A DNA stretch of 64,000 nt from Prochlorococcus sp. MIT 1341 (lineage in GTDB: Bacteria; Cyanobacteriota; Cyanobacteriia; PCC-6307; Cyanobiaceae). The notes under the pieces are model-generated. The model made no database searches. It saw nothing but the letters and a program-made list of their open reading frames with translations, and had not been told where the DNA came from. Of this stretch, positions 1-55,029 are shown one piece after another; positions within the stretch are counted from its first letter, which is position 1; every line of letters begins with the position of its first letter. The position numbers and the translations under genes are program-made. The DNA is taken from NCBI RefSeq assembly GCF_034092415.1, contig NZ_CP139304.1:1658001-1722000 (forward strand), written 5' to 3'.

Positions 1-1
1 C

Positions 2-358
2 ATAAGATACAGTTTTTTTCGATTTATTCTTGTCGGCCTTGGAGGTGAGGTTGTTTATCTATTTTTGTATACATTGATTCTTTTACAAGGACAACCTGCA
101 AAAAATGCCGTTTTCTTGGCTGGCTTACTAGGTGTTCTTTTAAACTCCTTTACTCATTCTAAAATAACTTTTAAGGTTAAATACAGCAGAAAAATAATTG
201 TCCTTTACTCTTTAGTTCAAATCATATGTTTGATCAGCGTTACTTTACTTGCCTCCATTCTTCAATATTTAGCATTTCATCCCTTTATAATAGGAATCAT
301 TACGATGATATTATGGGCAGTGTTGTCATTTTTTCTAATCCGTAATCTCTTAACTTAG
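2..358 (+). CDS. GtrA-like multi-span membrane protein, 5' end outside window
   Basis: The reading frame is open from the first bases, so the gene starts to the left; a TTG at 65 is only an internal codon. The visible N-terminal part contains FRFILVGLGGEVVYLFLY, close to the first-helix signature of GtrA-family proteins, followed by about three more hydrophobic segments. GtrA-like proteins are small four-helix membrane proteins thought to move or present polyprenyl-linked sugars across the inner membrane for O-antigen or polysaccharide glucosylation. The neighbouring sugar genes fit that role. The exact substrate cannot be told. Confidence 0.7.
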   Translation: MRYSFFRFILVGLGGEVVYLFLYTLILLQGQPAKNAVFLAGLLGVLLNSFTHSKITFKVKYSRKIIVLYSLVQIICLISVTLLASILQYLAFHPFIIGIITMILWAVLSFFLIRNLLT

Positions 359-380
359 AAAACTATGACCTTCTTCACTG

Positions 381-1910
381 CTAAAAATCTTTTTCACTTG
401 ATCCATGAATTTTCTTTAGACAATCTCTAGCAACTCTCCTACCATTTGTCATTATCAATAACGCGATAGTACTACCTGGGATTGAGGGGAAACCAGCAGA
501 ATCAGCTACATATACGCCAGGCAAACCGAATACTTCTCCTGAAGGGTAACAATCAGATAGTTCTACAGGCCTTTCTTTCATGGGTGTCGTTCCTCCAAAG
601 TGCCATCCCCCTAACTGATTACCTCTGAGCAACTGTGATAACAACGAAGTAAAAGGTATAGGGATTAAAAATAATTCATTGAATTTGATTAGCACGCTTT
701 TAAATAACTCATAAAATGCTTTTTTTGGAGAACGGTTCTTGTTTTCACGTATAGTCATTTCTTGAATGTAGCGCTCATTAGTTCTTTTGGTATTGCAAAC
801 TATCAAGCTGGGTATTCCTATATTTGAATGGTAGCAAGTTATTGAAAATTTTATAAAACTTGTAGCCCAAATATAAATAGGGTAAATTATTTTAGGTAAC
901 TTAGACTTTATTTGCCTTGTGATCTCACTATTAATTGGTCCTAACTGAGTATGACACCATGTGTTACCTGTACTTTGTGATCGCATTTCTAAAAAGTGTG
1001 AACAGAGTTCGCTACCTCTTATTTTCGAATGTTTAGATGATTTATTTATGCTAAGATTTAGATATGCCTGAAGGTATATCGGTGCTGAGTAAAGCGAATA
1101 GTAAGTGGTTTTATCGATATTATTGTTTAATGATCTTATACTTAAATCTACAATTCCAGTTGTATTTATGCAGCCTGCACATAATAAAACTCCATCGTAC
1201 ACCCTAGACTCTTCATGGCTAATTTGGTTAAGCTCAGTATTATACTTTTCAAATATAATCTTATTTCCACTCTTAGTTCCTTTTATGGATAGAACATTAC
1301 AGTTTGGGATATAATTAAATGAACTAGATCTTATAAGTTCTTTCAAATACCCCTCAGGTTTAAATGGTGTAATCATTTCTTTACCCGATTTTTTTACATT
1401 CCTAGTAATTGCTATACGTGAATGTCCTAAAATTAGGTCAGCTTCGTCCTTTTTCCTTTCATCATTAGTATTTATTTCATTCTTGCTACTAATGTTGAAA
1501 AAATAATCTAAATCATCTTCTCCTCTTATTAGTTCTAGACAGTCGATTATGTGATCAACATCGATTTGCTTCGGTTGTGAACCTTCAGGCCATTCACTTA
1601 AGTCGTCACTTTTAGGAAGTAGCATTGAACCACTATATACATTGCTGAACCCTAACCATGCGTGACTTGAGCATATTCTCTTACTATGAATCTTCCTAGA
1701 CCATCGATTATCATTTAGACCATATGCAAAATATGACCCTTTATAGAGTTTGCTGTTAGGCACAGCTTTGTTTGTACAAAATAATTCTTTCTTTGTTAGC
1801 CCAATATCATATATGTCTACCAGTATTTTTTCATCTTCAGAAAGAGCCGAACAGGCACCAAAGCTTGCCAGTCCCGAACCAACTACAGCAATTCTTTTTT
1901 TATTGGTCAA
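381..1910 (-). CDS. GMC-family FAD-dependent oxidoreductase
   Basis: 509 residues. The N-terminus has an FAD-binding GSGLASFGA motif after a beta strand (RIAVVGSG). The C-terminus has the GMC C-terminal pattern: YVADSAGFPSIPGSTIAL, with the proline/alanine-rich stretch that packs on the flavin. GMC enzymes oxidise alcohols, often sugars or polyols. It lies in a surface-sugar island, convergent with the GtrA-like gene and divergent from a sugar aminotransferase, so oxidation of a sugar or glycan precursor is inferred. The middle substrate region is not recognisable. No signal peptide is evident, so a cytoplasmic location is likely. Confidence 0.7.
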   Translation of the reverse strand: MTNKKRIAVVGSGLASFGACSALSEDEKILVDIYDIGLTKKELFCTNKAVPNSKLYKGSYFAYGLNDNRWSRKIHSKRICSSHAWLGFSNVYSGSMLLPKSDDLSEWPEGSQPKQIDVDHIIDCLELIRGEDDLDYFFNISSKNEINTNDERKKDEADLILGHSRIAITRNVKKSGKEMITPFKPEGYLKELIRSSSFNYIPNCNVLSIKGTKSGNKIIFEKYNTELNQISHEESRVYDGVLLCAGCINTTGIVDLSIRSLNNNIDKTTYYSLYSAPIYLQAYLNLSINKSSKHSKIRGSELCSHFLEMRSQSTGNTWCHTQLGPINSEITRQIKSKLPKIIYPIYIWATSFIKFSITCYHSNIGIPSLIVCNTKRTNERYIQEMTIRENKNRSPKKAFYELFKSVLIKFNELFLIPIPFTSLLSQLLRGNQLGGWHFGGTTPMKERPVELSDCYPSGEVFGLPGVYVADSAGFPSIPGSTIALLIMTNGRRVARDCLKKIHGSSEKDF

Positions 1911-2098
1911 TGCATATTTCCATCTTTCATTACTGTAACATGTTTAAACTTCCTTTATAAGACAGATACAATCACTACTTACTTTACCTACCTTGAAAAG
2001 ATCCATGATTAATAGGCCTCATAGAATATTACTTAAGGTAACAAAGTTATAATAAGCTAATGATTAGATATTTATATTGTAATAACTGCCTTTTGTAA

Positions 2099-3259
2099 AT
2101 GCCAAAACCTTTAACTATACCCTTTAATAAGCCATATATATCAACTAAATGTAATGATTACATGCTAAAGGCCTATCGATCGGGAAAGCACTGTGGTAAT
2201 TATGATTGGACCAATAAGTCAATTCAATTAATCAAAGAGAAATATAATACATCAGAGATATTCCTAGTTCCTTCCTGCACGGCTGCTTTAGAAATGGGAG
2301 CAATGTTAGCCGGTCTCAAGCCTGGTGATGAAGTCATACTTCCATCTTATACATTTTCATCTACCGTAACCTCCATAATGCTTTTTGGTGCGCGGCCTAT
2401 ATTTTGTGACATTAATCCAAGCACAATGAATATAGATGTTAACCAAATAAAACCATTAATAACTAATAAAACTAAGTTGTTACTCCCAATTGATTACGCA
2501 GGTGTCCCTTGCGAGCTAGATAAAATTAAAGAAATTTCAAACAAGTATTCAATACCAGTATTGGTCGATTCAGCTCAATCTTTCGGCTCATTAGACTCCA
2601 ATAGTAAATGGTGTTCTTCTGAAGCTGATTTGATAGCCTTCAGCTTTCATGAAACAAAAAATATTAGTTGTGGAGAAGGAGGAGCATTAGTAGTTAATAA
2701 TAAGGAATGGATTGAACGAGCTTATATATTGCAAGAAAAAGGTACTGACAGAAGAAATGTCCTCCAAGGAAAACTATCAAAGTATCACTGGGTAGACTAT
2801 GGCTCAAGTTATCTGCTATCTGATATCCTTGCCAGCATTCTTTGTGGTCAATTGGAAGACGAAAAAACTATTATGAGTAGCAGGGCTAATGTTACTCAAT
2901 TATACAGCGAAATTTTGCGCAAATTTGAGAATCAAGTCAATGTGATTGATGAATCTCAAAAAGACAAATATAACCATCACGCATATTATATTGTTTTTGA
3001 AAGTCATCAGAAGAGAAATTATTTTATTTCTCTTCTGCAGCAAGATTTCAAGGTATCTGCATATGTCGGATACTCTCCACTACATTCATCACCTATGGGT
3101 TTGAAGTTAGGCTATAAGCCTAGTGACCTACCTGTAACCCAAGACCTGGCAAATCGGATTGTCAGACTTCCTATCTATACAGAGCTTGGGCAATCAAATA
3201 ACCAATTAGAGTACTTAAAGTATGCTATCGAGACGACACTTTTGTCAGTATTGAAATAA
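2099..3259 (+). CDS. wecE: DegT/DnrJ/EryC1 sugar aminotransferase, WecE/RffA type
   Basis: 386 residues, normal for the family. It should transfer an amino group from glutamate to a nucleotide-linked 4-keto-6-deoxyhexose using PLP. The PLP lysine is in SFHETKN, and the following GEGGALVV is typical of WecE/RffA, which make dTDP-4-amino-4,6-dideoxygalactose. PSCTAALEMGAM is the substrate/PLP phosphate loop and VDSAQSFGS carries the conserved aspartate. The ATG start gives the expected N-terminus (IPFNKPYIS). It ends one base before the convergent Gfo/Idh gene. With the 2,3-dehydratase nearby, its substrate could instead be a 2-deoxy keto sugar, which is inference. Confidence 0.85.
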   Translation: MPKPLTIPFNKPYISTKCNDYMLKAYRSGKHCGNYDWTNKSIQLIKEKYNTSEIFLVPSCTAALEMGAMLAGLKPGDEVILPSYTFSSTVTSIMLFGARPIFCDINPSTMNIDVNQIKPLITNKTKLLLPIDYAGVPCELDKIKEISNKYSIPVLVDSAQSFGSLDSNSKWCSSEADLIAFSFHETKNISCGEGGALVVNNKEWIERAYILQEKGTDRRNVLQGKLSKYHWVDYGSSYLLSDILASILCGQLEDEKTIMSSRANVTQLYSEILRKFENQVNVIDESQKDKYNHHAYYIVFESHQKRNYFISLLQQDFKVSAYVGYSPLHSSPMGLKLGYKPSDLPVTQDLANRIVRLPIYTELGQSNNQLEYLKYAIETTLLSVLK

Positions 3260-3260
3260 T

Positions 3261-4247
3261 CTACTTCTTGGAAAGTTTTCTTATCTCATCCAATAATCTC
3301 ATATTATCCAATATTTCTAAAGACTCAATATCCTTTAATTTGTGATCAGAAATTAATTTGTAAAAATAAATGAGCATATTTTTGAATTGATTATCTTTTT
3401 TAAGCTCAATTTTTTCCGAACCCGACTCTTTCTCTAGATGTAATGTAGGCTTCATATCTAGAGGTGATGTAAATATCCTGGAGGTCGACAATTTCCCTTT
3501 TTGGCCCCAAATTTCTAAGTTACATTGATAAAAATTGTTGAACCCGAATGCTAAGGAAGCAACAATACCAGAGCCTTTCTCCTCAAGGTGTGCTCCACCC
3601 CACATATCTACTTCATAGCCCTTTGGAGTGTGTAAGGTTGATGATTTAACTGACAAACCTACCCCCAGCAATAACTGCGATATTTTTGTTGTATAACAAC
3701 CCACATCTAGGAGCGCACCTCCACCTAGACTGGATTGGTATCTAATATTGTTAGTGTTATTAAACAGAGGAAATCCAAATGACGATCTGATCGTTCTTAA
3801 CTCGCCTAATTGGCCTGTCTGAATGATCTCTGATATTGACCCAAGTTGGCTATGAAATCTAAATTGAAATGTCTCAAATATCGCAAGTTTCTTTCTTTTA
3901 GCAACACCAACAAGTTCTAATGCCTCCTGATAGTTAGTTGTAAATGGTTTTTCTAATAAAACATTGACATTATTTTCAAGAGCACACATTGCACATTTAA
4001 AGTGTAATGAATTAGGTTGTGGTATGTAAACGGCATCGATACAATTCGAATTTAATAGCTTTTTGTAATCATGAAAAAATTTACATCCATATTCCCCGGC
4101 TATTTTTTCCGTGTTAATTATATCCCTTGACGAAATTGCTGACAATTTATAATGATTTGGTAGAGATAATATTTCAGGAATTATACTTCTCTTGGCAATT
4201 GATGCTAGCCCAATTACACCTATTCGAATTTTCTTTTCATTTTTCAT
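3261..4247 (-). CDS. Gfo/Idh/MocA-family NAD(P)-dependent sugar oxidoreductase
   Basis: 328 residues. An N-terminal Rossmann motif IGVIGLASIAKRS is followed by EKPF, the conserved lysine motif of the family, then a GGGALLDVGCY segment in the C-terminal alpha/beta domain. The start ATG overlaps the stop of the upstream 2,3-dehydratase by 4 bp, so the two are probably translationally coupled. In antibiotic deoxysugar pathways an enzyme of this family reduces the 3-keto group made by the 2,3-dehydratase; that is the role proposed here from context. Confidence 0.8.
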   Translation of the reverse strand: MKNEKKIRIGVIGLASIAKRSIIPEILSLPNHYKLSAISSRDIINTEKIAGEYGCKFFHDYKKLLNSNCIDAVYIPQPNSLHFKCAMCALENNVNVLLEKPFTTNYQEALELVGVAKRKKLAIFETFQFRFHSQLGSISEIIQTGQLGELRTIRSSFGFPLFNNTNNIRYQSSLGGGALLDVGCYTTKISQLLLGVGLSVKSSTLHTPKGYEVDMWGGAHLEEKGSGIVASLAFGFNNFYQCNLEIWGQKGKLSTSRIFTSPLDMKPTLHLEKESGSEKIELKKDNQFKNMLIYFYKLISDHKLKDIESLEILDNMRLLDEIRKLSKK

Positions 4248-5674
4248 GTTAATGGCACCATGGCAAGTATATTCCTTAGTTGTATATTTAAAAAGTTATT
4301 AAATCGATTCAGATAAGAAAGTTGGCCTAAGGTTATCCATATATAGTTATCAGGAAGGTCCTGATTGAAATCATCTTTTGCTACGATGAAAATATTTCTA
4401 TTTTCTTCTTTATAAAATCTACCTCCTTCATCAGATTGCATAGAATCTATTAACCTTTGATTTGTACCGCTATTTAAAACGTATTCAAGAAACGGTACGC
4501 AGTATCCATCTTCTCCAAGATAACTTCCTGTGAGGCATTGAACAGTAGGTGCTAATTCTATTACATCTCTATTGCCACACTCTAGCTTTGCCTGCACAAT
4601 CAAGTGCAATATTCCATTTATCATTTTCCCAATAGTTGCACAAATTCCATTCTGCGAAGACTCTACTATTGGTTGTTGCCAACTGAGCGTCTCTCTACTT
4701 CCAATCGAGGCTGATACCCCAAAAATTCTAAAGTATTTCCCATCTTCTCGACTTATCTGCTCGTCAGTTACAGACCATTCACGCATATTCGATAGCTTTA
4801 TTTTTTCTACTTCGAGAGTACTTTCACTTTTGACTCTTGTGATGAAGTTAAGTATCTGATCAAGATCATATAGGGGTGTACCCATGCCCGTAAAGGAACC
4901 TATCGATATTGATTTACTTAAGGAAAGGGTTGGGGGTACATTATCAACTTCTGATAAACTATTTAGAGTAAAAGGTGAATACCTGATTCCAGAAATAACT
5001 GACCTAGTGTCCATATTTACGGTATTATCAAACTTCATTAGTGACTTAATTTGATTCAGGGTTAGCCATCTGAATCCATGCTCAAGCTTCATTTCTTCTT
5101 TTACTTGAATAATAATATTTCGATTCCTCTTCATTAGGAATCTCCCTCCTTGCTCTGATTGAAGGTTATCTAATAGGATATTTTCAGGCGAAGCCCGGAG
5201 AAAATATTCAAGATACATTGGCTTCTTGCCTTTATGCAACCCCATATAGTTGCTACGTGTTGCTTGTAGTGTTGGTGATAGTTGAACGTAATTAATATTC
5301 CCAGGCTCTATCTTTGCCTGAACCAAAAAATGCAATACACCATTAAATGATTTGACGATGAATCCTAAATATCCAACTTCATTCTGATTGATTATTGGCT
5401 GATCCCATTCGCTGATATTTTCTAAATTTGTCTTAACTCTGATTCCTTCTATTCTGAAGAAACCTCCTGATTCATGCCTTATGCATCCTTCATCAGCATC
5501 ATATATCCAACCTTCTAATGGCGTTAGATGAATTCTCTGAATGTCAATTGAAATTTCATCCTTAATGGTTTGTATCCATTTAAAAACATCTTCCAGACTA
5601 CCTGAAACACTATAATCAGTAGTGGCACTTTTCAAAAAATCTTGCCATGACGGTAATTTTCGACTTGATCGCAT
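4244..5674 (-). CDS. NDP-hexose 2,3-dehydratase (EvaA/TylX3-like)
   Basis: 476 residues made of two similar halves (about 1-235 and 245-476), as in the NDP-hexose 2,3-dehydratase family. Repeated landmarks are EGGRF...NRNI followed by a W-x-TL-x-Q motif: EQGGRFLMKRNRNI and RWLTLNQ in the first half, DEGGRFYKEENRNI and IWITLGQ in the second. SNYMGL and GSYLGE, and FLVQAKIEPGN and LIVQAKLECGN, also correspond. The enzyme removes the 2-hydroxyl from a dTDP-4-keto-6-deoxyhexose, the first step to 2,6-dideoxy sugars. The ATG start is well placed. The downstream Gfo/Idh gene overlaps by 4 bp and would supply the 3-ketoreductase. Confidence 0.85.
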   Translation of the reverse strand: MRSSRKLPSWQDFLKSATTDYSVSGSLEDVFKWIQTIKDEISIDIQRIHLTPLEGWIYDADEGCIRHESGGFFRIEGIRVKTNLENISEWDQPIINQNEVGYLGFIVKSFNGVLHFLVQAKIEPGNINYVQLSPTLQATRSNYMGLHKGKKPMYLEYFLRASPENILLDNLQSEQGGRFLMKRNRNIIIQVKEEMKLEHGFRWLTLNQIKSLMKFDNTVNMDTRSVISGIRYSPFTLNSLSEVDNVPPTLSLSKSISIGSFTGMGTPLYDLDQILNFITRVKSESTLEVEKIKLSNMREWSVTDEQISREDGKYFRIFGVSASIGSRETLSWQQPIVESSQNGICATIGKMINGILHLIVQAKLECGNRDVIELAPTVQCLTGSYLGEDGYCVPFLEYVLNSGTNQRLIDSMQSDEGGRFYKEENRNIFIVAKDDFNQDLPDNYIWITLGQLSYLNRFNNFLNIQLRNILAMVPLT

Positions 5675-5697
5675 TGGAAAATCGACTAGTTAGCTTT

Positions 5698-6040
5698 TTA
5701 CCATCCATTAAGCATATCTGGATAGTCTCGTAAAATCTCTGTTGTTTCATGTGATGGTATTACTTGCTGATATTCACGAGCTAAATCAAAGAATTATCTT
5801 AAACTCATAAAAGCAAGTCGCATCTTTGTTCATTTGTGTAATGTTCTTACTACCCTTTGTGGGGCTTGGGGTAGTGGGTGAAAAGCAAAAGCCTCCTTGC
5901 TGCATACGCTTCTCTTTTGTTTCTCTGTATAGATTTTCAGCATCAGCAACAAACTGTTGGCCAGAGAAAGCTGTTTCCACCTCACAGATGTATTCAAGAC
6001 TTTTTGTCGAAGTAGCTGCGAGTTCCCAGCTCTTAAAATC
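5698..6040 (-). pseudogene. possible decayed gene remnant
   Basis: Two minus-strand stretches in different frames look protein-like and could be one broken coding region. The upstream piece reads SWELAATSTKSLEYICEVE and continues through AFSGQQFVADAENLYRE. The downstream piece, in another frame, ends in EILRDYPDMLNGW and a stop. Neither has a convincing start. The two would join by a frameshift near 5790. The remnant lies between two sugar genes, where gene decay is common. I cannot name the parent family, and a chance composition effect is possible. Confidence 0.3.
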
Positions 6041-6134
6041 TTACTATACTCTGATTGTGTTTTCGAAATCTCAATATGTTTTTTTGAAAGACTCTAAAAG
6101 TATTAATTCGATGAGTTTATAATATAATATTTGT

Positions 6135-7100
6135 ATGCAAAACCTTATCCAGTTAAAAGATCGTATCTTTATAGCGGGCCATAACGGTATGGTTGGAAGT
6201 GCTATTTGCCGGTCTCTTTTGAGCAAAAATTACACTAATATTTTAACAGCAAATCGATCTGATTTAGACCTAGAGGATTTTGATTCCGTAGATAACTGGA
6301 TACAAGCAAGTCAACCCGATGTAGTTGTCCTTGCAGCCGCTAAAGTTGGGGGTATAGAAGCAAATAATATGTATCCCGCTTCTTTTCTTTTGCAGAACCT
6401 AAAAATACAGAATAATGTAATCGAAGCCTCATGGAGGAATGGAGTTAGAAGATTACTATTCCTAGGGAGTAGTTGTATATATCCTAAGTATGCTATTCAG
6501 CCAATTAAAGAAGAGGCTTTGTTGGAATCAGCACTCGAGCCAACTAATCAGTGGTATGCGATTGCAAAAATATCAGGGATAAAGTTGTGCAACGCACTTC
6601 GCATTCAATATGGGTTTGATGCAATTAGTCTTATGCCAACTAACCTTTATGGACCTGGAGATAATTATCATCCTAGGAACAGTCATGTACTTCCTTCATT
6701 TATAAGAAGGTTTAATGAGGCAGCAGAAAAAGGAGAGAAATCAGTTACATGTTGGGGAAGCGGATCGCCCTACCGCGAATTTCTACATGTAGATGATCTA
6801 AGCGATGCTTGTGTTTATTGCTTGGAGAAATGGAAGCCCAAAAAGGATGAACTTCAGTTTTTAAATGTTGGTACAGGAGTTGATCTGACCATAAAAGAAT
6901 TAGCAGAAACCGTTGCAAATATAACAGGCTATCAAGGTCAGATTTTATGGGACAAAAGTAAACCAGATGGTACACCACGAAAACTATTAAATATAGACCG
7001 AATATCTACCCTAGGTTGGAAGGCTAAGATCCCTCTTGTTGATGGATTGAAGGATACAGTTGCATTATTTAAGCAAACCAATCATCAGTTGAGAACTTAA
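6135..7100 (+). CDS. fcl: GDP-L-fucose synthase
   Basis: 321 residues, the usual size. It converts GDP-4-keto-6-deoxy-D-mannose to GDP-L-fucose by epimerisation and NADPH reduction. Visible signatures are the Rossmann motif IAGHNGMVGSAI, the catalytic region GSSCIYPKYA, the YAIAK tyrosine/lysine pair, and the substrate loop NLYGPGDNYHPRNSHV, all characteristic of Fcl/WcaG. The ATG lies just after an AT-rich stretch. Its partner gene gmd, usually next door, is at the right edge of the window about 57 kb away. Confidence 0.93.
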   Translation: MQNLIQLKDRIFIAGHNGMVGSAICRSLLSKNYTNILTANRSDLDLEDFDSVDNWIQASQPDVVVLAAAKVGGIEANNMYPASFLLQNLKIQNNVIEASWRNGVRRLLFLGSSCIYPKYAIQPIKEEALLESALEPTNQWYAIAKISGIKLCNALRIQYGFDAISLMPTNLYGPGDNYHPRNSHVLPSFIRRFNEAAEKGEKSVTCWGSGSPYREFLHVDDLSDACVYCLEKWKPKKDELQFLNVGTGVDLTIKELAETVANITGYQGQILWDKSKPDGTPRKLLNIDRISTLGWKAKIPLVDGLKDTVALFKQTNHQLRT

Positions 7101-7262
7101 AGATAACTTCTTAAAATCAATCCAAACTTTCTTCTGATATACAATTCTCAAGTAGCGTTTATTTATTAAAGGTCAGCTAATAGAACTCAAATCAAAAGCC
7201 CTCTATAAGTTTCTTATTATTTTCTGTTATACTAATGCCGGATCACTTGTCTATAGAGATTC

Positions 7263-8411
7263 CTAACAATATCTCTTGGCAAGGTTTTGCGCTTGTCCCT
7301 TACGATCTGAATATATCGACTGAGCCTTAAATCCGTCGCCTTTAATATCAAACATCTTGCTTGTACAGTTAAGGGTCAATTTCCGCTTTCTGAACCAACC
7401 TTCCGGTTTTGCTTGCCCTTGAAGAAAAAGTGAATTAACGCAATCTTCGCTAGCCCCTTGTGAACAATTGATTGCACCAATGACACCTGCAAAAATATTC
7501 CCAGCGATTTGCCTGCCTCTTTCAATCTCAAACCGATAAACATCAAAATATAACTTCCTATCTTTAATTTTGTAGCTTCTGCCAACTCTTTTTGAAAAGG
7601 TTTCATTAGTATCTTGCAGCCATTCTCCTGCAAAACTTCCTACACCCATCGATTCATCATTGAAGCCATTCATGAAAGAATTAAATCTATTTTTGGGGTT
7701 GTCATGCTTTGAGAGTAAATGAAAATCTCCAACACTAAAAAAGAGATTCGCACCCTTAGTAAAACCTTCTAAAGGCATCAACTTTTTAGATATTGCATAA
7801 GCCAAGTACTTTCCAGCCCTCCAATCAGCCTCATTCTCCTCATTGTCAAGGTACTTTTCTCTGCCAATATGATAATTCACATGATGTCCAAATTCATGAG
7901 ATAAAATTGCCAAGCTAAGATAACTAAGATTAAGATTTTTTCTGTCAGTGAAACCTTGAATTAATGGCCTTACATCAACAGTAATTTCACTGGAGGAAGG
8001 ACAATAAATATTGGGCAACTTAGAAATTAGTTTTTTTCCACATCCCATCAAATATCCATCATCAAGGCGGAGGATAGGTATAGGAAAAGTTGCGCCACGC
8101 GCCTTAGAACGTTCGATCCAATAGGAATACATCATTTTAAAATGAAGACTCAAAAATTCCTTATCCGCAATATCGGCACTTGGTTCTCCATAGTCATATA
8201 GCTTCGCTAGTAAGTGTTGATTAGAATCAATTAAAGAAGAACCCTTTTGATTTCTTTCTGGGTAAATCCGAGAATAGTAAAGATAGCAGTTTTTGTAATC
8301 ATTTCCTTTTCTTGCTTGACATGTTTTGTGAGCCATTATGTTTAGCTCTTCAGCCCTCAAAGAACTCACGCTATTAATTACAGATAGTAGTAGTAACAGG
8401 GCTTTCATCAT
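7263..8411 (-). CDS. secreted HExxH metallopeptidase-like protein
   Basis: 382 residues. The first 20 or so residues form a signal peptide (KALLLLLSVINSVSSLRAEE). A zinc-peptidase motif HEFGHH lies near residue 175, followed about 20 residues later by EENEADWRAGKYLA, which could supply a third ligand (E or D). Several cysteines are present, consistent with export. The combination resembles neutral zinc metallopeptidase-type proteins, but I do not recognise a named family. The gene stands alone, convergent with fcl. Substrate unknown. Confidence 0.65.
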   Translation of the reverse strand: MMKALLLLLSVINSVSSLRAEELNIMAHKTCQARKGNDYKNCYLYYSRIYPERNQKGSSLIDSNQHLLAKLYDYGEPSADIADKEFLSLHFKMMYSYWIERSKARGATFPIPILRLDDGYLMGCGKKLISKLPNIYCPSSSEITVDVRPLIQGFTDRKNLNLSYLSLAILSHEFGHHVNYHIGREKYLDNEENEADWRAGKYLAYAISKKLMPLEGFTKGANLFFSVGDFHLLSKHDNPKNRFNSFMNGFNDESMGVGSFAGEWLQDTNETFSKRVGRSYKIKDRKLYFDVYRFEIERGRQIAGNIFAGVIGAINCSQGASEDCVNSLFLQGQAKPEGWFRKRKLTLNCTSKMFDIKGDGFKAQSIYSDRKGQAQNLAKRYC

Positions 8412-48004: not shown

Positions 48005-49006
48005 TTAGCATCTGTTGTAGGTTTCGTCCATTTGTTTTAATGATTGCAGTTCAGTACAAGAAGCTTCATAAGAAAGTCCCCCTAAACCATCGCATTCTGC
48101 ATAAAACCATTTCGGAGACTGGCAATTATCAACGACAAGTGCACCCTCTTCTCCTATAAATCCGCCTGAGCATAATATTTTATTGTCGAAATCGTTTTGG
48201 CCAAAATTTGAGTAACTGGAAGTTGCCAATGTACCTATGATGTAACTAATCAACTCTTTACCAATATCAACTCGTTGTAGGTCTATATATTTGTTGGCTT
48301 TTATTTTTTTCAGAGCCCCAGATTTTAGAAGTGAGTGACCAATTAGAAATATTTTAAAATTCTTATGAATTAAAGGTAGAAAGTCAGATATATCTTCTGA
48401 TATATCACTACAGGAAATGATCACTCCTTGAGTATTTATAAAAGTATGCTCAATATGACGTACTAAATCTGGCGATACAATCGTATGTGCTGGCTTAGTA
48501 AGAATTATGGAATTTACAACTGCAATAGCCTTATTAATATCTCGATTAAAGCATTTTATTTTAACGCCAGATTCCGTAAGGGCCTTTATGAGTTTTGATC
48601 CAATATTACCCGTACCGATTAAACCTAACTTTAAACCGGAAATATCCATATACTGCCTAGTTAGTTCTTTCCAGGTTGCACTTACTGTTAGATCATTTAA
48701 CTTTATAGGATAGAGAGCCAACTTATCTTGAAGGCCCGTTTCATTTATAGACAATCTAATACTTTTGAAGAGATTATTTAGTTGGTCAGCCTTATTTGTA
48801 ATGTTAAGAGGTTGCTTCTTTTCTAGATCTACAAATAAATGAGAGCTCGTTTCCGAGACTAACCTTACAAAATCAGCGTAATCAATTTTTTCTGAGCAAA
48901 GGAGCGAAACAATTTGATAATCTCCAATCTCTCGAACAGCTGTTGTTTTTATTCGATCTTCAAAAATCCTCCCTACAGAATTTGATAACACAATGATTCT
49001 CTCCAT
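48005..49006 (-). CDS. Rossmann-fold protein with NAD(P)-binding motif, unknown
   Basis: 333 residues. The middle (about 125-145) holds GLKLGLIGTGNIGSKLIKAL, a GxGxxG nucleotide-binding motif as in D-2-hydroxyacid or related dehydrogenases. The N-terminal 120 residues (starting ERIIVLSNSVGRIFEDRI) match nothing I know, and the C-terminus has cysteines (CSGGFIGEEGA, CDGLGG, CTELQ). It ends eight bases from the FAD-NeuB fusion on the minus strand, so it is probably part of the same surface-sugar pathway. Confidence 0.55.
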   Translation of the reverse strand: MERIIVLSNSVGRIFEDRIKTTAVREIGDYQIVSLLCSEKIDYADFVRLVSETSSHLFVDLEKKQPLNITNKADQLNNLFKSIRLSINETGLQDKLALYPIKLNDLTVSATWKELTRQYMDISGLKLGLIGTGNIGSKLIKALTESGVKIKCFNRDINKAIAVVNSIILTKPAHTIVSPDLVRHIEHTFINTQGVIISCSDISEDISDFLPLIHKNFKIFLIGHSLLKSGALKKIKANKYIDLQRVDIGKELISYIIGTLATSSYSNFGQNDFDNKILCSGGFIGEEGALVVDNCQSPKWFYAECDGLGGLSYEASCTELQSLKQMDETYNRC

Positions 49007-49014
49007 ATTTATAA

Positions 49015-51483
49015 TTAATCCAGGATTTCTATATCATCTATGCTAACAGGCTGATTCTTACTTACAACCTTTTTTATCCTTAGTGCGCACCTCGGTAAAA
49101 TGGCATGGAAATCACTATATCCCTCAGGTGGTGCAAGTGCAATTAGGTCGTCAGTGTGAATCAGATCACCAACTTTTAGATTGTGTGGGAACCTAAGAGA
49201 TTTTTTTTGCATTGCAAATGTTATTTGCTCACTTGGGTGAATAACCTTTCTTTTTTTAGAAGTTGATTTTGAGACTAGATGTAATTGCTTAGAAAGCTCT
49301 AATGTTTCTTTCGGTCCAATTGACATTTTATTGTCCGGACCTGGCAGATGTTTGTTAGTTGTAAAGTGTCTTTCTATATAGGCTGCGCCTGCAGCCGTAG
49401 CTAAAAGACTTGTTAAAATACCTTCAGTATGGTCAGAATAGCCTATACAACAATCTGTAATTTCTCTAAGATAACTAATCTCTCCTAAATCTATATCTTC
49501 AAGCCTGGCTGGATAAGAGCTTCTACAACTCATTAGCATGACTTCTGTTTGTTTTGAATACCTTGATATTGATCTTTTGACTTCTTCTATATCACTCATT
49601 CCTGTTGAAATGATTACCGTTTCGAAACCCAGCGAATTAATTGCCTTGTGCAGCTTAAGGTTATTGCAATCCATTGAAGCAATTTTAACTATTTTTTGAC
49701 CAATGCTTCTTATGTAAGAAGCAGATTTAATATCAAAAACTGTAAAAAATACTGGCAAGTTAATTTCTTTACCATGGTCAATCAAATCTAAACATGAATT
49801 TTCATTTAATCTTGCTCTTTCAAAAATATCATTTAGAGACATTTCAGTTCCATCTGCTGTTTCATGTAAGTATTCAGTTAGTGAGTTTTTTTCAACTCTC
49901 GCATCTTTTTGATAGTACTGGAATTTTGCAAAGTCAGCTCCTGACTCCTTCGCTGCTTCCATCATTGCCTTTGCAAGGCTTATATCCCCATTGTGATTGA
50001 TACCAATTTCTGCAATTAACGGAACTCTAGAACCTGAGATATGATGAAGGCTTGATAAAGTAATGTACTCAGAGTTAGAATCCTTTGATTCATTCTGCTT
50101 GGTTGGTGATAAATGAACTAATGAATTACTTTTTTTACTGATTGAAGTTATTAACGGAACACTATAAATGTTTTCTTTTGTTATTTTTTTGAGCAAGCTA
50201 TTAATTAAACCTTTACTCTTTCTAAAAATTATTTGCATATCTGAATAATGAAACTCTCCACCCGTACCAATCACATGTAAGTTTTCAAAATAGGCAACTC
50301 GAGAATTGTATTTTGCTAAATTTGCTCTAAACTTAGTATCTTGAATTGGATAAACACATCTTTCAATATTCTCAGTACTAAATTCAGAGATATAGCCTGT
50401 AGAGTTAAAATCTTTCTGTCTAGATAGCCAGTCAAGAATCTCATCGAAGCTCTCTTCTGAAGAAGGTATATTTCCTTTGCTTGCAAATGTGTTCTCTACA
50501 CATAAAAAGGCAAAACCCTCTGGGCCAAGGTGTTTTGAAAAAGTAGTTGGTTCAGTGATCCGATTAAATGAAAGGCTTTTATCACTACAATATACCCAAT
50601 TAAAATCTTTTGGTAGGATTCGATTATTCTTAAAGAATAGATATCTTGATCTAACACCTCTAAATTCTAAGTCTAATTCTTGACCTATAAATCGAGCTAG
50701 TGTTGTTGCTGGGATTGTTGAGACAACAATATCTCCAGGTGAAATTTCTATTTTTTCCTCTTTGTTGAAAACTAAAGACCTTATTTTATCTTCAGAATAA
50801 TTGACCTTGCTAAGCTTTTTATTCATTTTTAATTTAAAATCCTCAGATTTTCTGAGGATTTCAACTATTCTATGATAAAAACAACCGGTACCAAGCTTCC
50901 CAACCTTTACGAAAGGTTTTGTATAAAATGGTCCGCTACTCTCTCTTAATTCTATTCTTTGAGGCGCCCAATCTGCTAACATTTTATCAGTTTTAATACC
51001 CCAAACCTTTTGGGGATAATCTGTAAAGAATAGTTTGCTTAAAGTCTTTCCTACTTTTCCTTCCATAAACTCTTTGAAACTAGATGAGGATCTAGATTTA
51101 TCTTTTTCTTTTATAGATTTGTATTCTTCTAATATCTGATTCAAAATACTTTTAGGTAGATTATTTCTAAGCGTTTCAAATGATATGGGATAGTCGAAAA
51201 GTTTATTTGGGTATTCTTTTATGATATTACAAGAAGTGTAATTACCAGGTATTAATAGATCATCTCCTATGCTCCCCCAGTCCTTTGCGATTTCTTTATC
51301 TGATGTATGAAAGATATGTGGGCCTGTATCTAGTATGAAACCTTTATGCTCCCATGATCTGGCCATCCCACCTATTTTGTCGGTCATTTCATAGATAGTG
51401 ATTTCTTTTATGCCAGAAATTTGTGCATAATATGCTAATGATATTCCTGCTGGACCAGCACCAATAATATGAATAGCTCCCAT
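49015..51483 (-). CDS. fusion of FAD-dependent amine oxidoreductase-like domain with NeuB-type nonulosonate synthase
   Basis: 822 residues. N-terminal part (1 to about 440): IIGAGPAGISLAYYA, EMTDKIGGMARSW, ILDTGPHIFHT and PQKVWGIKTDKMLADWAPQR match COG1232 flavoproteins (protoporphyrinogen-oxidase or UGM-like). After a polar linker (about 440-475) the rest is a sialic/legionaminic/pseudaminic acid synthase: AEIGINHNGDISLAKAMMEA, SGADFAKFQYY, KIASMDCNN, ISTGMS, CIGYSDHTEG, and a C-terminal SAF-like domain (LRFPHNLKVGDLIHTDDL). NeuB joins phosphoenolpyruvate to an N-acetyl-hexosamine. The frame is continuous, with no stop or frameshift. No cytidylyltransferase is adjacent. Confidence 0.85.
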   Translation of the reverse strand: MGAIHIIGAGPAGISLAYYAQISGIKEITIYEMTDKIGGMARSWEHKGFILDTGPHIFHTSDKEIAKDWGSIGDDLLIPGNYTSCNIIKEYPNKLFDYPISFETLRNNLPKSILNQILEEYKSIKEKDKSRSSSSFKEFMEGKVGKTLSKLFFTDYPQKVWGIKTDKMLADWAPQRIELRESSGPFYTKPFVKVGKLGTGCFYHRIVEILRKSEDFKLKMNKKLSKVNYSEDKIRSLVFNKEEKIEISPGDIVVSTIPATTLARFIGQELDLEFRGVRSRYLFFKNNRILPKDFNWVYCSDKSLSFNRITEPTTFSKHLGPEGFAFLCVENTFASKGNIPSSEESFDEILDWLSRQKDFNSTGYISEFSTENIERCVYPIQDTKFRANLAKYNSRVAYFENLHVIGTGGEFHYSDMQIIFRKSKGLINSLLKKITKENIYSVPLITSISKKSNSLVHLSPTKQNESKDSNSEYITLSSLHHISGSRVPLIAEIGINHNGDISLAKAMMEAAKESGADFAKFQYYQKDARVEKNSLTEYLHETADGTEMSLNDIFERARLNENSCLDLIDHGKEINLPVFFTVFDIKSASYIRSIGQKIVKIASMDCNNLKLHKAINSLGFETVIISTGMSDIEEVKRSISRYSKQTEVMLMSCRSSYPARLEDIDLGEISYLREITDCCIGYSDHTEGILTSLLATAAGAAYIERHFTTNKHLPGPDNKMSIGPKETLELSKQLHLVSKSTSKKRKVIHPSEQITFAMQKKSLRFPHNLKVGDLIHTDDLIALAPPEGYSDFHAILPRCALRIKKVVSKNQPVSIDDIEILD

Positions 51484-51661: not shown

Positions 51662-53473
51662 TCATTCGGCTTTTAACATATTTGACTTACTATAATCACC
51701 AATAAGATTAGTTAATCTGACTACCATATTCCTATCTTGATTAGCATATTTTGAGCAAAATAAGCTTCTAATTTCTTGGGTTTTTCTATTTAGCCACCAA
51801 GTATTAACATCATTCCAAAACCTTTTAAGATGATTGGCAGCATCTGTAGGGTCATCAAAGAAAATATTTACTTCTTTAAGTAATTTAAAGTCCATAATTG
51901 CATCCTCCCTGATTTCCCAGTGCTTTGGGTCCCAAAATATTATTGTTGGTATGTTTAATGCTAATGATTCCAAAAAAGTTGTACAATTATATGTGCTTAT
52001 GTAAATACGTGTATCTTTTAGAAGTTCTTTTATCTGCACTTCTCCTGAATTTATATATATATTTTTGTACCTATCCTTCCATCTTTCATATTGACATAAT
52101 CTGAAGTCACATCTTCCCAGCCTAACAATTAATTTATCCTGTATTACCTTTGGTAGAGTATCTACAAATTTAAATTGATTGTTTAGGTATTCCTCCCATT
52201 GACCAGAACCTATTGTACTACTAAACATTGCAAAACTATACCTAGAATAACTCCATTGAACTAATAGGACATTTTTTCTTCTTTTAGATTCATTTTCTCT
52301 TCTTACTTTAGAAGGTAATGACCGTAACATACCTATTGAAATACATTTAGAAGAATCACCAGGTGTATTCCAGCCCCATGTTAGAAAATTGTTTGAAATT
52401 TTTTGAGCATGATCCTCTTCAAATACCCACTTGCAAATTCCATAGGAGCCTCCATGCTGGCCTATGAATAGAGGAATTCCTCTTTCAACTTGACTTGCTG
52501 TCCATGCTTTAAAGAAGTCATCATTGAAGAAAGCTCCACCTGTAAAAATAGACTTAGGATTTTTAGGCCATAGTGAATTTGCGGTTAAATTTACAAGGCT
52601 TTTGTAACCTTCTAAATATATCCTAGGCATAAACCTAGGTAAAAATGTTTTTAGTAGCTCTATGAACTCTGTGCATTCTTTATGATCTTGCGTAATAGTG
52701 ACAACCCAACTTCTAGCTTTTTTGGAAAATTGGTTCCCTTTTATTTCTGGCCTTTCCCATGATATCGGCCTGTTCCTAAGACGAAGATGAAGCTCAACTA
52801 GCTTGAATAAATCCATGTAGGTATCAATAATCAGATGTGAGTCTTTACGATTCAACCTCATCAATAAATTTTTTATAAATGTCTTCAACTTATTTTTTCT
52901 CGATTCAAAGATTAATTCATTCTCCAATTTTTCGTCACAATCAGCCTCCGCTTCTATTTCCCCTACATAACATATTTCTTTTCCCATAAATTTAATAATC
53001 TCCCCACACATCATTTCGTTCCACTTGTCACCTACTATCAGACTGTGGAACTCTTGGTAGTCATTAGCAGCAAGATCTTCTTCGGAAACTTGAATTATAT
53101 TGGTTTTATTTATTTCATGCTTTTTAAATGCTTCCTTAAGCATGAACCATCTGTCATATAGAATATAAATGAACATTCCAAGCCAAGGACCTATAAGTAT
53201 TCGCCAATATCTAACAGAATAATTTGTATTATGCTTTTTATTTAAAATTAACGCTAATTCCTCTAAAACTGATTCATACAGAATTAATAGTGATTTGTAA
53301 TCTTTAAATAATTTCTCTCGATCGTCCCAATGATATTTTAAGGTTGTGTGTTCTAGATTTTCCCATTTTTTTCTTCTTGAGTATATTTTACACCATTCAC
53401 CTAGAAATAATACACTTGCCTTTTCTTTTGGCCATGTTTTTTCGACCCCACTTGTGACTAAAACTTTTTCCAT
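51662..53473 (-). CDS. LIC12162-family putative surface-glycan transferase
   Basis: 603 residues. It opens with VLVTSGVEKTWPKEKASVLF then LGEWCKIYSRR, which matches the start of the LIC12162 putative transferase family (TIGR04331). QHGGSYGICKW and IYISTYNCTTFLESLA are further likely landmarks, the latter like a nucleotide-sugar donor pocket. Family members occur in surface-glycan loci. It is 178 bases upstream of the FAD-NeuB gene and in the same direction, so it may transfer the nonulosonate. That role is inferred. Confidence 0.7.
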   Translation of the reverse strand: MEKVLVTSGVEKTWPKEKASVLFLGEWCKIYSRRKKWENLEHTTLKYHWDDREKLFKDYKSLLILYESVLEELALILNKKHNTNYSVRYWRILIGPWLGMFIYILYDRWFMLKEAFKKHEINKTNIIQVSEEDLAANDYQEFHSLIVGDKWNEMMCGEIIKFMGKEICYVGEIEAEADCDEKLENELIFESRKNKLKTFIKNLLMRLNRKDSHLIIDTYMDLFKLVELHLRLRNRPISWERPEIKGNQFSKKARSWVVTITQDHKECTEFIELLKTFLPRFMPRIYLEGYKSLVNLTANSLWPKNPKSIFTGGAFFNDDFFKAWTASQVERGIPLFIGQHGGSYGICKWVFEEDHAQKISNNFLTWGWNTPGDSSKCISIGMLRSLPSKVRRENESKRRKNVLLVQWSYSRYSFAMFSSTIGSGQWEEYLNNQFKFVDTLPKVIQDKLIVRLGRCDFRLCQYERWKDRYKNIYINSGEVQIKELLKDTRIYISTYNCTTFLESLALNIPTIIFWDPKHWEIREDAIMDFKLLKEVNIFFDDPTDAANHLKRFWNDVNTWWLNRKTQEIRSLFCSKYANQDRNMVVRLTNLIGDYSKSNMLKAE

Positions 53474-54588: not shown

Positions 54589-55029
54589 TTATTGGGGTAC
54601 CCTGTGAGTTGCACAAGGCATCCATAAAGTACCCATTTTGTGCACACCTAAACATCCTAGTTTTTTCGCTTCAGCTTCAGCTTGAGATCTAGAGGGATAA
54701 GCATAGATGTTCTTAGATGATGAATTTGATTCATCGAATGTTTTTTGAAGGGCTGCTCCTTCAGGGCTCCATACCTTAAGACCCATAGTAGTAATTCCTG
54801 CAGAAAATATTCCCATGCCCACTATAGAAGCGTTCATTACACCCATTGCGACTACCCCAATAGATACAACTCCCATTGGAACTATTCCAATAGTGACTAT
54901 ACCCATTGGCACAATACCAATAGAAACTATCCCGAGTGGTGCTATACCAATAGCAATTTTTTTGGGCTTACTTCCGCAATGCTCGGTGCTTTCTGACCGT
55001 TGTTGCTTGGAGGTATTTAGATTCGACAT
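54589..55029 (-). CDS. GIV-repeat protein with C-terminal DUF3721 domain
   Basis: 146 residues. Positions about 25-85 are ten-residue repeats of the form G-I-V-P/S-I/M-G-I-V (IGIVPMGIVTIGIVPMG), hydrophobic and regularly spaced, perhaps a beta-roll or membrane-inserting stack. The C-terminal 40 residues (PSRSQAEAEAKKLGCLGVHK, then MGTLWMPC) match DUF3721, with the cysteine and H-K-M-G pattern. It lies two bases after the DUF3721 lipoprotein-like gene, so the pair is an operon. Function unknown. Confidence 0.72.
   Translation of the reverse strand: MSNLNTSKQQRSESTEHCGSKPKKIAIGIAPLGIVSIGIVPMGIVTIGIVPMGVVSIGVVAMGVMNASIVGMGIFSAGITTMGLKVWSPEGAALQKTFDESNSSSKNIYAYPSRSQAEAEAKKLGCLGVHKMGTLWMPCATHRVPQ

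Follow-up and report, generated by a model that had tools for sequence, protein, structure and literature searches.

The locus considered here raises the question of what is made by a single protein in which a flavin-dependent domain is joined to a complete NeuB-type synthase, and whether such a protein really exists. The window, that is, the whole stretch of DNA that was analysed (64,000 nucleotides of Prochlorococcus sp. MIT 1341, whose genome is one contig of 1.94 Mb), carries on its minus strand, at 49015-51483, a single unbroken frame of 822 codons from ATG to stop. A preliminary description, made from the letters alone, had read this frame as a flavoprotein followed by a complete NeuB with a SAF-like end, and the reading is borne out by the open reading frame, by Pfam and by the structural model. 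The gene, its parts and its two neighbours are the following:

49015-51483, minus strand: fusion gene, 822 aa, UGM-like flavoprotein joined to NeuB and SAF (open reading frame, Pfam, model)
50179-51483, minus strand: FAD domain, residues ~1-435
50059-50178, minus strand: linker, residues ~436-475, of low confidence and variable length
49249-50025, minus strand: NeuB barrel, residues 487-745
49018-49221, minus strand: SAF/antifreeze-like C-terminal domain, residues ~755-822
48005-49006, minus strand: partner gene, 333 aa, 8 bp from the fusion on its downstream side; predicted fold NAD(P)-dehydrogenase-like, with two domains
51662-53473, minus strand: LIC12162-family transferase, 603 aa, upstream of the fusion (TIGR04331, 464 bits; cut-off 225)

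Pfam places NAD_binding_8 (6-63) and Amino_oxidase (12-263) in the N-terminal half and NeuB (PF03102) at 507-745, with 204 bits against a cut-off of 22.1; the GLF/UGM model collects 31.6 bits in total with no single stretch passing, and SAF is called in homologues, not in the window protein. In structure alignments residues 473-819 of the model match the NeuB of N. meningitidis, SAF included, and the complete NeuB with its SAF end corresponds to ~476-822 of the protein. The linker is modelled as disordered, with pLDDT <50 at 436-457 and 465-473. No NCBIfam model spans the whole fusion. In the open-access literature neither a report of this fusion nor any characterised FAD-NeuB fusion was found, and it may be described in subscription papers or preprints. 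The fusion and its partner gene are a two-gene module, undescribed in the open-access papers searched and common to picocyanobacteria and SAR11.

Within the window's family, 7 of 400 genomes, that of the window among them, carry the same domain order in a single frame; two of the relatives are 56-60% identical to the window protein and four are 34-39% identical, one of them, first matched in two pieces, being actually one frame of 807 aa that was confirmed as one match. A scan of named genomes that used the window protein alone as query returned no relatives, whereas an alignment query did: the fusion was found in Prochlorococcus and Synechococcaceae single-cell genomes, in many Pelagibacteraceae, in one SAR116, in one further alphaproteobacterium, in one Elusimicrobia MAG and in one MAG labelled Nitrososphaerales. 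This last contig (L046) measures only 9.7 kb and has low coverage, and a binning error may lie behind its archaeal label. Of 297 SAR11 genomes about 4 or 5 carry the fusion, two of these being truncated matches, as do 2 of 295 genomes of the Elusimicrobia phylum. None of the viral contigs and phage records scanned encodes it. Presence is thus patchy in distant groups, and therefore gene exchange across them is suggested. An empty insertion site beside purU could not be demonstrated in genus relatives, where synteny is not kept.

The Rossmann protein noticed in the preliminary description beside the fusion turns out to be, moreover, its conserved partner. It is predicted to adopt a two-domain NAD(P)-dehydrogenase-like fold, its sequence matches being weak, and the 7 of 400 family genomes that carry it are precisely those with the fusion, in a search with a profile built from family and SAR11 relatives, by which remoter homologues could be missed. 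Once duplicates are removed there are 25 distinct fusion loci (the second Elusimicrobia match is extra to these), and in 23 of them the partner, on the strand of the fusion, adjoins or nearly adjoins it; it lies downstream 13 times and upstream 10 times. Locus L052 lacks it, and L055 begins at a contig edge, its upstream side being unseen. The gap reaches 508 bp in L060, a single-cell genome in which the fusion gene (L060:5372-7748) lies in two frames, likely through a frameshift or sequencing error. There is strong evidence that partner and fusion share a function, because their order swaps while their adjacency persists. In PADLOC the partner has one weak match (E1-E2, 19.5 bits) and the fusion none.

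As to the flavin half, the preliminary description was right in calling it a flavoprotein, but its COG1232 label proved imprecise. Judged from sequence profiles and the predicted model, this half has the fold and the nucleotide-sugar contacts of UDP-galactopyranose mutase (UGM), and COG1232/HemY is not its best description. When a profile of 19 fusion FAD halves is compared with the PDB, UDP-galactopyranose mutases rank first; the model aligns with bacterial UGMs at Z 32-36 (for 3hdq, Z 35.8, rmsd 2.7 over 357 residues), against Z 26-28 for protoporphyrinogen oxidases, the best of which (27.8) stands 8 Z units below UGM. The UGM of K. pneumoniae contacts the diphosphate and the sugar through R174, R280, Y314, Y349 and W160 (PMC3624792), and in the profile-PDB alignments these residues correspond to R176, R308, Y378, Y413 and W161, which are kept in 23/23 fusions, as is the flavin histidine H56; F186 (Tyr in UGM) and D415 complete the UGM-equivalent positions of the domain. 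The likeness to UGM (3hdq, 1i8t, 2bi7; UDP-GalNAc mutase 4mo2) thus extends over ~357 residues of the fold and includes the pair of diphosphate arginines, two tyrosines, the tryptophan and the flavin histidine. Against it are set an identity of just 16-21%, an invariant Phe (F186) at the position of UGM Tyr185 and a score of 63.2 bits with the UGM equivalog TIGR00031, far under its cut-off of 303.75; the position of the uracil-binding N270 of UGM, as read from the alignment, is Tyr. By profile the half is nearest to the PRK07208 group (151 bits, versus 63 for curated UGM), whose cyanobacterial members (470-640 aa) are however without a fused NeuB. To our knowledge, no function has been established for PRK07208-type FAD proteins.

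It could also be argued that the FAD half performs true redox chemistry as an enzyme of the COG1232/amine-oxidase type, which would oxidise the NeuB product or its precursor to give a keto- or acid-modified nonulosonate, with the partner performing a second redox step. The Amino_oxidase match in Pfam, the protoporphyrinogen oxidase folds that align as well and the dehydrogenase-like partner that nearly always adjoins the fusion are consistent with this, but UGM folds score clearly higher and the UGM nucleotide-sugar contacts are invariant, and we consider it unlikely. The linked oxidation step of the preliminary description is thus kept as one option and is not the favoured one.

The NeuB half, which is the sole NeuB in the window genome, retains the catalytic apparatus of the family. 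Its fold aligns with the N. meningitidis enzyme (1xuu/2wqp) at Z 35.0 over 335 residues, SAF included, with 29% identity, and its metal and PEP site residues are invariant in 23/23 fusions, the invariant positions of the barrel being E492, K520, Q522, K600, S603, Y657, S683, H685, E704, H706 and D717. Among the differences between the two proteins are the flavoprotein, which the meningococcal enzyme lacks, and a residue of the SAF domain. In N. meningitidis NeuB Arg314 contacts ManNAc and the R314A variant is inactive (PMC6795526, citing Joseph 2013). The equivalent position is occupied in the window protein by A784 (49132-49134), and among the fusions by Gly, Ala, Ser or Pro: arginine is found there in 0/23 fusions versus 44/47 standalone NeuBs (Fisher p = 1.5e-15, a value that overstates independence, the sequences being related). 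The fusion NeuB also falls under the curated NeuB and PseI cut-offs, scoring 239.7 bits with the N-acetylneuraminate synthase model TIGR03569, whose equivalog cut-off is 399.65. Because the SAF arginine is absent from the fusions, a changed aldose is proposed for this half, and its sugar substrate probably differs from the ordinary one. This loss adds new evidence to the earlier suggestion of a modified nonulosonic acid, which is probably correct.

The gene neighbourhoods point in the direction of CMP-sugars. It had been remarked that no cytidylyltransferase is adjacent, and indeed none adjoins the fusion in the window; however, a PF02348-type enzyme lies within about 3.5 kb of the fusion in 19/25 loci, and in the window genome a PseF-like one, a candidate CMP-sugar synthetase, is encoded at 677 kb, about 1 Mb from the fusion, and is 54% identical to the cytidylyltransferase beside the fusion in L035. 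The search for a PseG hydrolase in the window genome gave a sub-cut-off match only, and the one full-length PF02350 epimerase match looks, from its sequence and context, like the non-hydrolysing WecB type. The PseG and PF02350 searches therefore revealed no supplier of the ordinary kind for NeuB in that genome, which is not proof that there is none. Recurrent neighbours at the other fusion loci are a class III aminotransferase, a short SDR-like protein and radical SAM/SPASM proteins, and an aldo/keto reductase is near the fusion in two Prochlorococcus loci. The surface-glycan character attributed earlier to the neighbours in the window is upheld by the LIC12162-family transferase and the Rossmann protein. 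The transferase was dropped as a candidate member of the module; it is not kept beside other fusions.

From sequence and model it seems moderately likely that the fusion is a conserved enzyme of two domains, belonging to a pathway for nonulosonate-type (3-deoxy-ulosonic acid) sugars that are activated with CMP, and the product is most likely a modified nonulosonate-type sugar made from a nucleotide sugar. The NeuB half would probably condense PEP with an aldose other than ordinary ManNAc, and a PF02348 enzyme would, with good likelihood, activate the product to a CMP-sugar. For the flavin half the best-supported reading is that it acts on a nucleotide sugar, by a reaction that we infer: more tentatively, the UGM-like half, with reduced FAD, might bring about flavin-N5 attack and ring opening on a nucleotide-linked precursor of the NeuB substrate and pass the opened or rearranged sugar to NeuB, while the partner would reduce or oxidise the sugar, or keep the flavin reduced. 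A flavin step before NeuB is preferred mainly because no other substrate supplier was found. In its fullest form, which is tentative and, taken as a whole, somewhat unlikely, this proposal has the UGM-like half expel the nucleotide from an NDP-sugar and open the sugar ring in the form of a flavin iminium; the open-chain aldose would then pass to the fused NeuB, in place of the step that NeuC, LegG or PseG hydrolases otherwise perform. The nonulosonate precursor would be one without the usual recognition of a C2 N-acetyl group, and gene exchange would have made the module common to unrelated ocean bacteria. A module of this kind changes the substrate to be expected of a NeuB enzyme; should the sugar be supplied or reshaped by the flavin half, nonulosonate biosynthesis would gain a new point of entry and the UGM fold a new role. 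Its recurrence in unrelated ocean bacteria points to an undescribed route to an acidic surface sugar. Cell-surface sugars likely matter for the recognition of such cells by phages and grazers.

Alternatively, the UGM-like half could work later than NeuB, on the CMP-activated product, whose ring it would contract, or its substrate could be a different nucleotide sugar belonging to the same glycan; joining the two enzymes would then serve for coordination. The pyranose-furanose change that UGM performs on nucleotide sugars provides a precedent (PMC3624792), and cytidylyltransferases are near most fusion loci. Yet CMP-sugars have one phosphate and both diphosphate arginines of UGM are kept, and we consider this alternative unlikely.

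A chance fusion of two glycan enzymes, kept without functional coupling, would find parallels in other NeuB fusions of marine bacteria, NeuB-CTP_transf_3 and CBS-NeuB-AP_endonuc_2, in which NeuB likewise has an additional domain and some of which share a neighbourhood with the FAD-NeuB fusion; these are however without a flavin domain and, where tested, outside the fusion NeuB clade. A tree built by a quick method, whose long rows (L040, for example) may be wrongly placed, separates the fusion NeuBs from every standalone NeuB by one branch (SH-aLRT 94). This single clade, in which none of the sampled sequences is a split version, its specific loss of the SAF arginine and the co-inherited partner make an uncoupled chance fusion very unlikely. 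That the frame is an assembly or annotation artefact has a negligible probability, and the fusion can be taken as genuine, because independent genomes, single-cell assemblies included, carry both halves in one frame at 28-60% identity, and because the window genome is a single contig. The base composition (GC 0.337; GC3 0.24-0.25 in both halves, low as in the neighbouring genes) bears no sign of a join and gives no proof of an island.

Several further observations concern related genes. The NeuB-cytidylyltransferase (PF02348) fusions are of ~580-590 aa, adjoin a radical SAM gene and occur in several of the same neighbourhoods (L036:12004-13770, L046:5742-7514, L049:9466-11208, L051:3725-5473 and L065:9456-11201, with Pfam run on the L036 copy only), and the CBS, NeuB and AP_endonuc_2 domains are combined in a 758-aa protein at L038:10756-13032. 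Frames of 750-775 aa that contain NeuB are found repeatedly in other cyanobacteria. In the window's own genome, at ~970 kb, a KdsB-like cytidylyltransferase is flanked by an AroB-related sugar-phosphate cyclase and an SDR (L042:7778-11421), an arrangement that suggests a CMP-linked cyclitol or similar compound. Within the window, a putative second sugar cluster is read from the sequence in 1-8000, with an aminotransferase-like gene (2099-3259), a dehydratase-like gene (4244-5674) and a GDP-fucose-synthase-like gene (6135-7100), and 54589-55029 encodes a 146-aa protein with many GIV(P/S)(M/I)G-like repeats.
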